From IMG/VR virus record IMGVR_UViG_3300032116_001461, positions 1 through 21,923 of that record: 21,923 bases of DNA; one strand, 5' to 3'. Origin of the DNA: a virus. Both the position numbers and the translations under genes were made by a program. The notes beneath the pieces are model-generated. The model searched no databases. It saw only the letters and a program-made list of their open reading frames with translations, and had not been told where the DNA came from. This document shows, piece after piece, positions 3,481-21,519 of the stretch (its first letter is position 1; every line of letters starts with the position of its first letter).

Positions 3481-4071
3481 ATGAATATATTTTACGTAAA
3501 TTCCGACCCCGAGGTCGCTGCTCGTAGCATGGTTGACCGCCATGTAGTTAAAATGATTCTAGAGACTGCACAGTTGCTCTCTACTGCCCATCGTGTCATT
3601 GACGGTGAGGAGTATGTAGGACAAACGCAGACCGGACGTAAAGCAAAACGATGGAGACTATCTGGCAATGCTGACGCTATTATGTATGCTGCTACTCATA
3701 TTAATCATCCTTCAGCAGTTTGGGTTCGTGAAAACTCTGCTAACTACAATTGGTTGTATGATCATCTTTTGGCTCTTGGTCGTGAGTATACCTATCGTTA
3801 TGGTCGTACTCATCTTACTATTGATAAGCTAAAGGATATTCTCAAGGACGCCCCTGCGAATATCACACAAAGCAAAGTAATGACTAAGATGCCATCTTGC
3901 ATGGACAAGCAGTACATCGTAAGCTTAGACCCGATTATCAACTATCGCAACTATTACAACTACGGCAAGACTGACTTGCTACGCTGGTCTAATCGTCCGC
4001 CTCCGCAGTGGATTGACGGCACGGTTATCATGACTGACGGTAAAAAGCAGATATACACTATACAGAGATAA
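3481..4071 (+). CDS. conserved phage protein, function unknown (possibly DenV-like)
   Basis: 196 aa, N-terminus MNIFYVNSDP followed by a conserved-looking block DRHVVKMILETAQLLSTAH (19-37), then a basic, Tyr/Asn-rich C-terminal half. From memory this N-terminal block is widespread in T4-like phages, mostly as a hypothetical protein. The D-x-H plus following Glu pattern loosely recalls the T4 endonuclease V (pyrimidine-dimer glycosylase) family, but I cannot confirm homology and do not assign that activity. There is only a weak Shine-Dalgarno (GAGTGG) before the ATG. The last 15 codons plus stop are duplicated 1,102 bases downstream, after the methyltransferase gene. Confidence 0.7.
   Translation: MNIFYVNSDPEVAARSMVDRHVVKMILETAQLLSTAHRVIDGEEYVGQTQTGRKAKRWRLSGNADAIMYAATHINHPSAVWVRENSANYNWLYDHLLALGREYTYRYGRTHLTIDKLKDILKDAPANITQSKVMTKMPSCMDKQYIVSLDPIINYRNYYNYGKTDLLRWSNRPPPQWIDGTVIMTDGKKQIYTIQR
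4023..4071 (+). repeat. 49-bp direct repeat, copy A (3' end of upstream gene)
   Basis: The last 49 bases of the 3481-4071 gene match 5125-5173 at 45 of 49 positions with no gaps, including an exact 23-base core. All four differences are transitions and the reading frame is preserved. The copies bracket the methyltransferase gene at 4074-5123. Confidence 0.92.
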
Positions 4072-4073
4072 CT

Positions 4074-5123
4074 ATGCCTAAGAATAAGAATAAAAAATAT
4101 CAAATTACTCATTTAGGCAAGACTCTAAACACTGACCACTGGTATGACTTGCCAGAGGATAAATGTCTAGCATTGAAGGCTGCGTATTACGAGAAGCCTG
4201 ATTTTGATTTGGTTAAGAAAAATCTAGAGGCAGTGTATAATGGTGGTACTGTCATAAGCACTATCACTAGCTATTATGTAAAAGACCTTATGGCTAAAGT
4301 GAAGCTAGAATCTCCGCGATGGTCTATCGAACAAGTCTTTGAATCTATCGACTTGATACGATACTTTTGGAGCCGAGTGCTTTCAAGTGATAAAGTATAC
4401 CCGAAGACCGATTCAGATATCAAGAACTTTGAAGCTGCCCTAAGACTTAGTGGCGGCGGTGTTGCCATGAAGCCATCTAACTATCCTATTAAATCAGTTG
4501 ACGAGATACTTTCTAAGTACAATATCAATGGTAAATACTACGATTTTTCTTGTGGTTGGGGAGTACGATTACTTTCAGCAATGAGAAATCGAGTTGAGTA
4601 TTACGGTACTGACCCTAATAACCTACTAGTAGACAGACTTAGACAGATGGCTACTGACTACAACACAGTAAATGATACATCTGCATTTTATGATATTAGG
4701 TGTCACGGTTCCGAAACATTCGTTCCAGAATGGGAAAACACTATCGGAGTAGCCTTTAGTAGTCCTCCGTATTTCAATCTTGAAGACTATGGTGTTGGTA
4801 ATCAGTCATACAAGCCCGGAACTTCTTATCAAGAGTGGCTAGATAACTATCTACGACCGACGATAGAGAACATCAAGAAATACCTGATTGAAGATGGCAA
4901 GATGCTCGTTAACATTAAAGATTTCTTAGATTACAAGCTATGCGCTGATACTAGAGCCATTGCAGAAAGTCTAGGGTTTCATTACGTAGAAACACTTACG
5001 TTGAAGAACATAACTAGACCAAGTGCTAAAGTAGACTTGAACACAGATGAAGGCATCATGGTGTTCTCAAAGAATCCCGTACAGCCAGAGATAGTTCCTG
5101 AAAGCCTATTCGTTTTTGGATGA
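4074..5123 (+). CDS. DNA methyltransferase, SPPY type (N4-cytosine or N6-adenine)
   Basis: 349 aa. A class I methyltransferase core occupies the C-terminal half: motif I YDFSCGWGVRLLSA (156-169), the acidic strand-2 end GTDPN (178-182), and motif IV SSPPYFNLEDYG (229-240). SPPY is the hallmark of exocyclic amino-methylating DNA enzymes, frequently m4C. The first ~135 residues are a separate, mostly helical region that may recognise DNA. No restriction partner is adjacent, so protection of phage DNA or a regulatory mark is more likely than a complete restriction-modification pair. The gene starts two bases after the previous stop and lies exactly between two copies of a 49-bp direct repeat, which suggests it arrived as a cassette. 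Its stop overlaps the ATG of a 17-codon ORF. Confidence 0.83.
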   Translation: MPKNKNKKYQITHLGKTLNTDHWYDLPEDKCLALKAAYYEKPDFDLVKKNLEAVYNGGTVISTITSYYVKDLMAKVKLESPRWSIEQVFESIDLIRYFWSRVLSSDKVYPKTDSDIKNFEAALRLSGGGVAMKPSNYPIKSVDEILSKYNINGKYYDFSCGWGVRLLSAMRNRVEYYGTDPNNLLVDRLRQMATDYNTVNDTSAFYDIRCHGSETFVPEWENTIGVAFSSPPYFNLEDYGVGNQSYKPGTSYQEWLDNYLRPTIENIKKYLIEDGKMLVNIKDFLDYKLCADTRAIAESLGFHYVETLTLKNITRPSAKVDLNTDEGIMVFSKNPVQPEIVPESLFVFG

Positions 5124-5173
5124 AGGTTATCGTAACTGACGGTAAAAAGCAGATATATACTATACAGAGGTAA
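5120..5173 (+). CDS. 17-codon mini-ORF duplicating the C-terminus of the 3481-4071 protein
   Basis: ATG at 5120 overlaps the methyltransferase stop (ATGA); the product is MKVIVTDGKKQIYTIQR. Its last 15 residues equal the C-terminus of the protein ending at 4071 except one Met-to-Val change. Two of four nucleotide differences are silent. It may be a translated peptide, a relic of a displaced gene end, or simply a ribosome feeder for the next gene: its end, ACAGAGGTAA, supplies the Shine-Dalgarno for the ATG at 5177. Confidence 0.45.
   Translation: MKVIVTDGKKQIYTIQR
5125..5173 (+). repeat. 49-bp direct repeat, copy B (after the methyltransferase)
   Basis: Second copy of the repeat described at 4023-4071, 45 of 49 identical. 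It ends in GAGG plus TAA, directly before the ATG at 5177, so it carries that gene's ribosome-binding site. Confidence 0.92.
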
Positions 5174-5176
5174 AAT

Positions 5177-5593
5177 ATGTTTGAAAAATTAAAAAAATTG
5201 TTTAGTCCAGCCCCAGAGCCGACTCCTGAACCTGTGCCAGAAGTAAAGAAGGCACCTAAGAAGAAAGAGCTTACACCTAAGGAGAAGGCAACTGCTGCCG
5301 GCGAGCCTTACGTTAACATCATAAGCGTTGACCTTGACCCAGCCGACATTAACAATGGCGCTTTTGAACTTGAATGGAATGATAAGTTTCTAGTAAATCT
5401 AGTCAAGCAGGGTTACAAGATTCGTGATGATGATACCGAGGCACAAATTGTGGATCGTTGGTTCCAAACTGTATGCCGAAACATTGCACTTGAAGTATAT
5501 GAACAACAGCAGGCCGACCCTGATAAACGTGAATCAGATATGCGTGTTATTCAGCAGCGTGATTTAGGTGGCGGATTTACCGAAGTTAGTTAA
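5177..5593 (+). CDS. conserved hypothetical protein of marine T4-like phages
   Basis: 138 aa. The N-terminus (MFEKLKKLFSPAP) is basic and is followed by a Pro/Glu then Lys-rich linker (about 10-45). The folded part begins near EPYVNIISVDLDP (43-55) and contains NGAFELEWNDKF and IVDRWFQTVCRNI, ending in RDLGGGFTEVS. I recall the pattern of FELxWN, VDRWF and a terminal RDLG..EVS as common in cyanophage and other marine T4-like genomes, where it is uncharacterised; this is memory, not a search. The Shine-Dalgarno GAGG lies in the preceding repeat. No function is proposed. Confidence 0.75.
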   Translation: MFEKLKKLFSPAPEPTPEPVPEVKKAPKKKELTPKEKATAAGEPYVNIISVDLDPADINNGAFELEWNDKFLVNLVKQGYKIRDDDTEAQIVDRWFQTVCRNIALEVYEQQQADPDKRESDMRVIQQRDLGGGFTEVS

Positions 5594-5611
5594 TATTTTG
5601 GATAAAAAAGG

Positions 5612-5640
5612 TTGACAACTGCTACGTTATTGTGTATTAT
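5612..5640 (+). promoter_or_regulatory. sigma70 promoter for the ParB-like/GIY-YIG-like pair
   Basis: TTGACA at 5612-5617, 17-base spacer, TATTAT at 5635-5640, in a 78-base intergenic gap. Transcription would start near 5647; AAAAGG serves as Shine-Dalgarno for the ATG at 5672. The bases before the -10 (TTGTG) and an ATTAAC element just downstream are shared with the promoter at 7273. Confidence 0.8.
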
Positions 5641-5671: not shown

Positions 5672-6853
5672 ATGGCAGTAAAGTTTAAATGGGTAGCTAA
5701 CACTACTAAGATTACTAAGAAGCAGCTTCCGGTAAATGAACTTGACCGTAAGCCCGGTGATATTACCGCACGAAGCGCAGTGGATATGGCTAACGATTTT
5801 ACTGTGTCGCCTGAAATGGAGCAGATCAAATCTGCTCTAGCCGATAAAAGCTATAGTAATTCAGCCCCTCAAGATTTCAGCGATACTCCGACTCTAATGA
5901 AGTTGAAGATTCGCTTGCTTATTTCTGCACTTGAGTTTCAGCGTCCTATTGAATTCACGCACGTTAAGAAAATCGTACTTGAATGGGATTCTAGGCGCCC
6001 TGCTACTATCAATGTAGTTTATAATCCCGATACAAAGCAGCATTACATCACTGATGGGCAGCATACTGTTCTTGCATATGCAATCCGTGCATATTTGGGA
6101 TTGTTCAAGGATGTTGATCCGGCAGATTGGCTTGACCTTGAAATAAATTGCCAGGTCGTAGTGACCAATGATATGGCATTTTGTAGCGAACACTTTCAAG
6201 GAATTAACGGCGGAGACAAACTGCCATTGACTCCGTTTGATTATTGGAAGCCAAAGGTTCTCGGAAAACGTCAGCATTCTCCGAACAAGCAAACTAAGGA
6301 TACCTATGAGATTGCATTTGCTAAACAACTCATCTTAGAAAAGTACAAGATTATTCCAGTACACCAAGATTCACCTGATAGATTTAAGCCCGGCGCATTA
6401 GTGCATGTACACAATCTTGAAAAGATGAGTGTTGAGGATGTTGCTTTCATGGCAAAAAATCACAACACGTATTGGTCGCAGGAACCGGTTGATCCTTCTG
6501 AAATGCTTCCGTTGCAGGAACTTCGCAATCGTTGCGTAAAAGCGGGTGCAGAAACAGACTCTAAGGAGTTTAAGGAATTCATGCAAGACCTAAACACAAT
6601 TATCAAGCATGTCCTGGGAGGCTTTGCTGAACTCAAGCACAAGACACAAGAAGTATACCCCAAATACCATTTAGCTGCGTTCGGTGAAACAAAGACAGCG
6701 CCGAAGGACGCTTCATTGTCGCTTTTACTCAAGATGTATAAGAAGGCGGGTGGAACTTATCGGTATGCTCCTAGCATTCTAATCAACAAATATAGTGAGA
6801 ACAACACTGATTTGTTTGATCATCTTGACCCTGCAATTAGGAAGATGTTCTGA
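5672..6853 (+). CDS. ParB/Srx-like (DGQH-motif) protein
   Basis: 393 aa. The central region has the N-terminal ParB-domain arrangement: FQRPIEFTHVKKIVLEWD (89-106), then INVVYNPDTKQHYITDGQHTVLAYAIRA (113-140 by position), i.e. a strand pair closed by DGQHT. In ParB, DndB and DGQHR-type proteins this loop is DGxHR and binds or hydrolyses nucleotide, or acts in DNA modification control; here the final Arg is Thr. The rest (about 190-393) is helical without a recognisable helix-turn-helix. It could be a DNA-binding regulator, a nuclease, or a modification-associated factor; position alone does not choose. It has its own promoter and shares a one-base overlap with the following GIY-YIG-like gene, so the two probably act together. 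Confidence 0.68.
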   Translation: MAVKFKWVANTTKITKKQLPVNELDRKPGDITARSAVDMANDFTVSPEMEQIKSALADKSYSNSAPQDFSDTPTLMKLKIRLLISALEFQRPIEFTHVKKIVLEWDSRRPATINVVYNPDTKQHYITDGQHTVLAYAIRAYLGLFKDVDPADWLDLEINCQVVVTNDMAFCSEHFQGINGGDKLPLTPFDYWKPKVLGKRQHSPNKQTKDTYEIAFAKQLILEKYKIIPVHQDSPDRFKPGALVHVHNLEKMSVEDVAFMAKNHNTYWSQEPVDPSEMLPLQELRNRCVKAGAETDSKEFKEFMQDLNTIIKHVLGGFAELKHKTQEVYPKYHLAAFGETKTAPKDASLSLLLKMYKKAGGTYRYAPSILINKYSENNTDLFDHLDPAIRKMF

Positions 6854-7269
6854 TGTTTATGTATATAGCAGAAGTATACGGAAAGATTAAACCAGGAATT
6901 AGTAAGACTGTTACCAGTCGTATTCTATCATATGATAAGGGTAATACTAATCCTGTATTTCACAAGTTATATGTAGCAAACGATGGTTTTGGTAGTCATA
7001 TCAATAATCTAGAAGCATATGTGTTGCGTGAACTTTTCCCGTATTTAGAAAATCCAAACGGTAACAGAACTCCTAGCGAATATGTTGATCCTAAATTTAC
7101 ACAGATTGATGTACCGCATGTTCAAGCGTTAATAGAAACTCGCATAAAGAATTATCCATTACAAATACGTAAATTAAAAGATGAGTATCTTCCGATTACT
7201 AGGCACAACGCTAAAGCTATCATAGAAGGTATAACGTTATTTCCGGATAAGTACCTTGAGGACATTTAA
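6853..7269 (+). CDS. GIY-YIG-like (T5 ORF172-like) small protein
   Basis: 138 aa. The N-terminus MYIAEVYGKIKPGISKTVTSR (3-23 by position) fits the two-strand GIY...YIG core in its variant form, with a KPGIS strand and a following Arg. A candidate catalytic Glu lies in NLEAYVLREL (about 53-62), and PSEYVD follows. The match is to the T5 ORF172/MUG113-like branch rather than to classical homing enzymes, and is made by eye, so a non-catalytic DNA-binding role is possible. The ATG overlaps the ParB-like stop (TGATG) with AGGAAG as Shine-Dalgarno. Confidence 0.45.
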   Translation: MFMYIAEVYGKIKPGISKTVTSRILSYDKGNTNPVFHKLYVANDGFGSHINNLEAYVLRELFPYLENPNGNRTPSEYVDPKFTQIDVPHVQALIETRIKNYPLQIRKLKDEYLPITRHNAKAIIEGITLFPDKYLEDI

Positions 7270-20071: not shown

Positions 20072-20079
20072 TATTTATT
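20072..20079 (-). promoter_or_regulatory. late promoter box (AATAAATA) abutting the dismutase start
   Basis: On the - strand AATAAATACTATC runs directly into the dismutase ATG; the box includes the stop codon of the SGNH gene. T4 spacing puts transcription start on the A of the ATG (20066). Shares ATAAATACTATCAT with the fibre promoter at 19010-19017. Confidence 0.5.
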
Positions 20080-20773
20080 TAAAGTTGTCTAGTATCTTTT
20101 TTGTAATAACTTGCTGTGACATGATTCCCATATGCATTAAGTCTCTTGCTAAATCAAATTTTTGGTGATTCATAACATCCGTGTCAATGATTTTAGTATC
20201 GGTATAGCAAAGTTTTACCATTCTTTTGGAAAGTTCTTTTTTGGATGCGAAGTATCCTGTTTGTTGTCCTAATGCCATAAATCTAGATGAGTCGGTATAT
20301 GGACCGGCAACCTGATGAAGCGACACATTATCATTTTCATGTATTGAAAGAAATCTAGTTTCGTATGTCCAGGCTATTACTACAGCTTTGGGAGGCTTCT
20401 TTACAGTGTTGATCCAAGCTATTAAATTATATGTCATGGCGTCTATACCTGATCCGCCCAATGACAAGTTATAGTAATCCATGCCTAAGGCATTTGAGAC
20501 TAAGTAGGGAAAGGTCTTTTCTAGTTCTAAGCCTGTCCCTTCTGTGTGACTGCATCCGCTGAATAGAATATAATTATCTAGATCAATTTCCGATACGTTT
20601 TTGCATCTATGTCCATACTCATTATAGTCATACGTTATCTCAGCATTTCTATAATACCAATCTTGTGGTTGAGTTTTTAAGTGCTTTTCAAACCTATCTT
20701 CATTGTCGCTACCCGAAAACTTCAATGTAGTGTTTGTGACATGACCTATAAAATTCCCGTTAAACTTACGCAT
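20075..20773 (-). CDS. SGNH/GDSL-like hydrolase, paralog 1
   Basis: 232 aa with GAGG Shine-Dalgarno. Block I is FSGCSHTEG (S75 as nucleophile, GCS in place of GDS). Block II glycine is in NLSLGGSGID (about 103-111). The block V Asp-x-x-His pair is D211/H214 (RDLMHMG). The block III GxND Asn is not evident; AWTYETRF occupies that place, as I recall for the phage members of this family. SGNH enzymes cleave acyl or acetyl esters, and in phages they may trim cell-surface glycans or decorate virions. It is adjacent to, and clearly duplicated from, the next gene upstream on the strand. It could also be non-enzymatic. No signal peptide. Confidence 0.72.
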   Translation of the reverse strand: MRKFNGNFIGHVTNTTLKFSGSDNEDRFEKHLKTQPQDWYYRNAEITYDYNEYGHRCKNVSEIDLDNYILFSGCSHTEGTGLELEKTFPYLVSNALGMDYYNLSLGGSGIDAMTYNLIAWINTVKKPPKAVVIAWTYETRFLSIHENDNVSLHQVAGPYTDSSRFMALGQQTGYFASKKELSKRMVKLCYTDTKIIDTDVMNHQKFDLARDLMHMGIMSQQVITKKILDNFK

Positions 20774-20793
20774 ATGTCAACCTCATTTTTTGA

Positions 20794-21519
20794 TTAGACA
20801 ACATGATTTAGGATATCCTTAACTAGTGCAGCATGAGATTCTATTCCAGGATGACTTAAATCTCTTGCAAAATCAATCCTATCTAACCGTATGGGCGTTT
20901 CATCAAACGGTATCTGCCTCAATGCGTTAATCATTACTAGTTTAGTATCGGTTGTCATTAGTTTAATAAGATTACACGCTAGTTCTTTGCGGCTATTGAA
21001 GAAGTTGATAGCGTCGGAATAATAGATGAATTTTGAAACGTTTTCATCTTCTTTCCAAAATCCGTGTGGATCAGCACATCCGTTGTTCACGATTACGAAT
21101 CTAGTTTCGTCAGGCCATTGGACAAATAGGTACTTTGGCTTTTTTTCTACAGTTAAGTACCATGCTGTGAGATTGTGCATCATCACATCTATACCTGACC
21201 CAGCAATTGACAAGTTATAGTAGTCACAATTTAGCGCATTAGCTACTTGATAACAATAAGTCTTTTCTAGTTCTAACCCAATACCCTCTGTGTGGCTACA
21301 TCCGGTGAACAATATATAGTTGTCTAGATTTATGTCAGCAATGTTTTTACACCGATGGCCGTATTCGTTGTAGTCATAGGTTATTTCAACGTTTCTATAG
21401 TACCAATCATCAGGCTGGGTGCGAAGATTGCCAACAAAAGGTTCTTCTTCATCGCCTCCGGAATAGAACCGAGACTGATTAAGAAGTTCATATCCTAAGA
21501 AAGGAAAGTTAACCTGCAT
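20794..21519 (-). CDS. SGNH/GDSL-like hydrolase, paralog 2
   Basis: 241 aa. It shares DWYYRN.EITYDYNEYGHRCKN, then GCSHTEG.GLELEKT and YYNLS..GSGID with paralog 1, with the same serine position (S75) and block V D220/H223 (RDLSHPG); the C-terminal half carries insertions relative to paralog 1. The start overlaps the infA stop by one base (TAATG) and its Shine-Dalgarno (AGAAGAAA) is inside infA, so translation is probably coupled. Both paralogs retain their catalytic residues, which argues against one being a decaying copy; different substrates or partners are likely. Role as for paralog 1. Confidence 0.72.
   Translation of the reverse strand: MQVNFPFLGYELLNQSRFYSGGDEEEPFVGNLRTQPDDWYYRNVEITYDYNEYGHRCKNIADINLDNYILFTGCSHTEGIGLELEKTYCYQVANALNCDYYNLSIAGSGIDVMMHNLTAWYLTVEKKPKYLFVQWPDETRFVIVNNGCADPHGFWKEDENVSKFIYYSDAINFFNSRKELACNLIKLMTTDTKLVMINALRQIPFDETPIRLDRIDFARDLSHPGIESHAALVKDILNHVV

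Follow-up and report, generated by a model that had tools for sequence, protein, structure and literature searches.

In an uncultivated T4-like phage, represented by the 21.9-kb virus record referred to below as the window, a DNA methyltransferase gene (M) stands between two genes, A and B, with the 3' end of A present on both of its sides, and the insertion of M between A and B is well supported. The repeat pair is present in the DNA, the junction is ancestrally single-copy, M is mobile, and the pattern recurs with other cargo. The case with M is that of one lineage only, and we infer microhomology recombination as the origin of its arrangement: M probably entered the shared A/B junction through illegitimate recombination at microhomologies, with only signal-duplicating insertions surviving. 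Judged from its sequence, the tail of A probably doubles as the leader of B, bearing a Shine-Dalgarno sequence and a putative T4-type late promoter, and the two roles appear to have been split after duplication, coding falling to the left-hand copy (copy 1) and regulation to the right-hand one (copy 2). How genes are added to phage genomes with almost no intergenic space is an open practical question. The history of this locus can be reconstructed, since empty sites, other positions of the cargo and a second, independent insertion into the junction are all available, and the locus is also a natural experiment on a small scale in how sequence that is both coding and regulatory resolves after duplication.

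The repeat pair, its single-copy ancestor and the mobile cargo

An earlier sequence-only reading had drawn attention to the last 49 bases of a gene recurring, with the frame kept, just after the methyltransferase gene, and this is upheld: the two copies (Table 1) are identical at 45 of 49 nt at a spacing of 1102 (repeat family D6; self-BLAST E = 1.3e-13). Once copy 2 is masked, the 49-mer has no ungapped match in the rest of the window above 26/49 on the same strand or 27/49 on the opposite strand. Over 10,525 and 9,525 bases, respectively, that span the locus, contigs 3300032050_004712 and 3300008116_002766 agree with the window at every position (100% identity), and this identical arrangement in two further contigs makes an artefact of one assembly unlikely. 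Among the fetched loci, M lies between A and B only in the window and these two contigs.

Table 1. Features of the methyltransferase locus, in window coordinates.
Feature	Position	Strand	Remarks
Gene A	3481..4071	+	196 aa; phrog_624 'DNA binding protein'; weak Pyr_excise
Copy 1, 3' end of A	4023..4071	+	synonymous changes in codons 192 and 196
Left junction	4069..4078	+	A stop TAA joined to M leader CTATGCC
M, DNA methyltransferase	4074..5123	+	349 aa; probable N6_N4_Mtase type; motifs DFSCGWG and SPPY
Mini-ORF, MKVIVTDGKKQIYTIQR	5120..5173	+	17 codons; ATG overlaps M stop (ATGA, 5120-5123)
Copy 2, ancestral A/B junction retained as B leader	5125..5173	+	
Right junction microhomology GGTT	5125..5128	+	common to AAAAAAGGTTGACA and CACGGTTATC
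Putative promoter motif ATATATACTAT	5153..5163	+	one mismatch from the family's late-promoter-like ATAAATACTAT
AGAGG, Shine-Dalgarno of B	5166..5170	+	6 nt before B ATG at 5177
Gene B	5177..5593	+	138 aa; phrog_13349; virion structural protein, head and packaging
Promoter element after B, TTTTGGATAAAAAAGGTTGACA	5596..5617	+	same string follows M in A-B-M relatives
Gene C	5672..6853	+	ParB-like; comes after M or B in relatives
Gene D	6853..7269	+	GIY-YIG nuclease fold; candidate break source (speculative)

Searches with A and with M yielded 72 and 33 loci, respectively. In 45 related contigs B lies directly 3' of A with one copy of the tail, which argues that the single-copy A/B junction is ancestral and that M was inserted into it. 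A comparison with related phages had been proposed as the check on insertion, and single-copy A-B junctions were indeed found in many relatives, including M-free empty sites of the order A-B-C-D-X (L164, L165) or A-B-g14-g24-g25-X (L156-L158). Where the A of single-copy relatives is 92-97% identical to that of the window, the tail reads ATATATACTATACAGAGGTAA and is followed by a few bases and then the ATG of B; a variant, ATATATACTATTGGAAGGTAA, occurs in L020 and L021. The polarity is that the tail sequence of the relatives is kept by copy 2 and not by copy 1. The Kyanoviridae member HTVC008M is one of the T4-like phages with a homologue of A, and many others have one as well. The position of A has itself been swapped between lineages, given that another gene (g23) takes its place directly before B in L155, L159 and L161.

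M matches the Pfam family N6_N4_Mtase with E 1.1e-5 and 25.9 bits, just below the curated cut-off of 26.7, and its SPPY and DFSCGWG motifs are invariant across 16 relatives; a structure model (pLDDT 42) was too poor for use. No restriction-enzyme match was found among the neighbours A, B, C, D and X, which marks M as an orphan, like the stand-alone orphan methyltransferase of Staphylococcus phage Alsa_2, to which it is 35% identical over 93% of its length. Such phage methyltransferases usually shield phage DNA from host restriction. A tblastn scan of genome_contigs confirmed no bacterial relatives of M. In related loci M comes after B (the commonest position), before A, is absent, or is decayed (L153, L106); when before A, it is placed between E and A (L012-L018, L142, L146). 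It can also be far closer to the window copy than its neighbours are: in L087 an M of 91% identity has A and B beside it at 63% and 51%, respectively, and in a 171-kb record M lies at 126 kb with 94% identity and the A homologue at 12 kb with 49%. The varied positions, together with high identity of M against low identity of A and B, indicate that M moves separately from the genes around it. The M tree puts the window copy with the after-B copies of A-B-M loci, a group with 93% support in the nucleotide tree and weak inner support. Per-segment identities point to no single donor of M. For the E-M-A-B order we claim no duplication, as no repeat of at least 22 nt was detected in L012 or L142, although M and A both carry similar promoters there.

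Expression signals in the tail of A and the fate of the two copies

That copy 2 also carries the Shine-Dalgarno sequence of the next gene, as had been stated from the sequence, is borne out (Table 1). The heptamer ATAAATA is among the most enriched 7-mers 5' of ORF starts in a sample made up of 150 kb of related sequence and the window (19 occurrences vs 2.0 expected) and forms the core of T4-type late promoters (PMC1524935). Such a promoter would have a TATAAATA-like sequence ahead of a late gene and be active in vivo; the putative motif in the tail of A, ATATATACTAT, is one base away from ATAAATACTAT. Both signals, and their original spacing to B, are retained by copy 2. Copy 1 preserves the amino-acid sequence of A but has undergone two synonymous changes at positions invariant in 17 single-copy alleles, one on the promoter motif (codon 192, TAT>TAC, 4054-4056) and one on the Shine-Dalgarno sequence (codon 196, AGG>AGA, 4066-4068). 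Across the 32 codon columns that show no synonymous variation in the 17 alleles, the A of the window departs at these two only, and both fall within the four such columns of the tail, for which the chance is 6/496 = 0.012. We regard this evidence as suggestive rather than strong, since the change in codon 196 coincides with the crossover and could stem from it, and it is weakened further in that the four differences between the copies are few.

Copy 2 is also the end of an ORF whose stop lies at 5171-5173 and which is most likely an incidental by-product. Selection on its 17-aa peptide had been entertained as one reason for the likeness of the two copies; the comparison speaks against it, as the mini-ORF is confined to a single lineage and conservation in copy 2 concerns the Shine-Dalgarno sequence and the promoter motif. 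Selection on the mini-ORF is in our view quite improbable, be it for the peptide or for a translated leader that would couple B to M. Its frame is preserved and its ATG overlaps the stop of M, but an open frame is to be expected anyway in a recent in-frame copy, and the one departure of copy 2 from the relatives, ATG>GTA, changes a codon of A.

Recurrence with other cargo

The sequence-only reading had further suggested a search for the same repeat beside other cargo, and such a case exists, with the same junction duplicated around an unrelated insert. Local direct repeats were scarce when the loci were compared with themselves; promoters and tRNAs accounted for some, and two match the pattern of the window. 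In the first (L034:3581-5671), a foreign 2-kb segment of 61% GC parts A and B in a phage of 42% GC and lies between the two copies of a 40-bp repeat (90%) that comprises the end of A and the start of B; the single-copy state is seen in L033, and two bases of the promoter-like motif are lost from the right-hand copy in L034. No match to the insert was found in 50,697 phage records. In the second (L103:2880-4212), from another T4-like phage in which gp59- and SSB-like genes lie close by, a distant homologue of M (65% identical) is bordered on both sides by a 100-bp direct repeat (96%). The left copy closes an 86-aa ORF, and in the right copy lie GGAG and the ATG with which the following ORF begins; no single-copy relative of this phage was found in the collection.

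Partial duplications also border nuclease genes. An HNH-type endonuclease gene sits at the start of the exonuclease gene X in L178 (6127-6998), with a 34-bp copy of the X start upstream, and in L038 (1988-3597) an endonuclease-like gene is preceded by a remnant of A, 30 codons long, and followed by a complete, more divergent A. In the first 50 kb of T4, no flanking repeat was found around mobA, segF, segA, mobB or mobC, the only repeat being the sequence that mobB and mobC share; with five free-standing endonuclease genes lacking it, such a scar is evidently not left by every insertion.

Routes into the junction

At the left junction, the stop of A is joined to a leader of the type that follows the TAA of B in A-B-M loci (e.g., L009, L011, L020). 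On the right, M is followed by GGATAAAAAAGGTTGACA in relatives, whereas in the window GGATGAAGGTTATC continues into the A tail. The two strings that share GGTT come from the promoter following M in relatives and from the A tail, respectively, and the exchange is placed within GGTT because it is there that the post-M sequence of the relatives gives way to the tail of A. Short sequences are thus shared at both junctions, TAA on the left and GGTT on the right; these could arise by chance and are weak evidence alone. In T4, tandem segments and deletions form at microhomologies of 2-10 bp (PMC9391042).

Recombination at these microhomologies would place M so that 46-49 nt of the junction flank it on both sides. 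On the simplest path, the 3' flank of an M positioned after B would have joined the A tail of a second genome to yield A-B-M-a'-B, from which the first B would then have been lost between two TAA stops, with copy 1 completing A and copy 2 driving B. Insertions at this site would survive only if they duplicated the overlapping signal, since any other would disrupt A or switch B off: placed at the A stop without duplication, the insert would part B from its signals, and farther upstream it would truncate A. As the tail of A serves as the leader of B, duplication would be tolerated and was likely needed, and with the A-end/B-start stretch on both sides of M, both neighbours can keep working. The promoter element that follows B in the window corresponds to the end of M plus the promoter in A-B-M relatives and is possibly the scar of a lost second M. 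We take this as no more than a hint, given that the 20-mer TTGGATAAAAAAGGTTGACA is also found in unrelated settings, several of them after terminators, and that L025, which lacks M, has a similar spacer. In its own right, TTGGATAAAAAAGGTTGACA (5598-5617 of the window) is a recurrent promoter element of these phages, occurring in many unrelated contexts.

The main rival concerns the detailed route, not the insertion itself, and we give it a little less than an even chance: a fragment with M, free or from a donor, would have been joined at both ends into an empty A/B junction at staggered breaks, leaving a duplication like that of a target site. This requires fewer steps, dispensing with the tandem intermediate and the loss of B; the variable repeat length fits staggered breaks, and the insert of L034 is explained as well, its foreign DNA having no possible tandem origin. 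On the other hand, the M of the window lies within the clade of after-B copies, and GAAGG, immediately to the left of the right junction, resembles the post-M promoter and not A; these two observations favour an after-B source for M, which could still have been a donor genome. A nuclease, whether D or one since lost, might instead have cut near the A/B junction, with M copied in during repair. D has a GIY-YIG fold (Slx1, Z 8.8; weak family matches of its homologues) and lies 1.3 kb downstream of B, the nuclease genes of L178 and L038 have their partial duplications, and T6 owes tandem amplification to the GIY-YIG enzyme SegB (PMC13096335). Nevertheless, the insert of the window holds no nuclease gene and D is present in M-free relatives, so we consider this homing-type route rather unlikely, and it is speculation that D supplies DNA breaks as SegB does in T6. 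The small D protein has the ParB-like gene C as its partner in most relatives.

The sequence-only reading had proposed the insertion of a cassette at the stop of A with a replacement 3' end, as integrative elements do at gene ends. The insertion stands, with the old junction lying beside B and A provided with a second 3' end; the analogy with integrative elements is not supported. An element that targets the 3' end of A and supplies a replacement end, like integrases that act at tRNA genes and gene ends, would give this very geometry, but there is no integrase beside M or in the L034 insert, and the window insert holds M only. M has no conserved ends and in most relatives sits elsewhere without such a repeat; repeat lengths vary between 34 and 100 bp, and their borders differ, the 49 bp of the window lying inside A and the 40 bp of L034 reaching into B. 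Site-specific integration is, on this evidence, barely credible.

Microhomology-mediated entry into the junction, which we favour, has partial parallels in known systems. The free-standing homing endonuclease genes of the T4 seg/mob type are likewise cargo between adjacent genes, expressed from upstream and with the downstream signals preserved. The displacement of downstream promoters by T4 mobile elements is recognized as a problem that is solved by promoters inside the invading gene, and segG carries promoters of gene 32 (PMC2988022). Unlike in those systems, the cargo here is a methyltransferase, and the signals were saved by a duplicated end of the upstream gene, not within the cargo. Segmental amplification and compensatory deletion in T4 and T6 share with the proposed path microhomologies of 2-10 bp, tandem segments and secondary deletions (PMC9391042, PMC13096335), but are recent dosage amplifications of a resident gene, whereas the present case would be a settled change of gene order with partial relics. 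Partial gene relics beside a moved gene are likewise expected from tandem duplication followed by random loss. The latter process is known from mitochondrial gene order. In the literature searched it is not established as a phage model, and the intermediate A-B-M-a'-B was not present among the fetched loci.

It is conceivable, if somewhat doubtful, that junction duplication is a general route by which compact phages take in new genes, the copies then splitting coding and regulatory roles; only junction-duplicating insertions would survive because the signals of the downstream gene lie inside the upstream one. Should this be so, the scar would mark recently gained cargo in phage genomes, anti-restriction methyltransferases for example, through a searchable signature, namely a repeat of which the left-hand copy closes one gene and the right-hand copy bears the start signals of the next. 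Elsewhere in the window, on the minus strand at 20075-21519, two neighbouring genes are tandem paralogues that share a 278-nt stretch of 71% identity.
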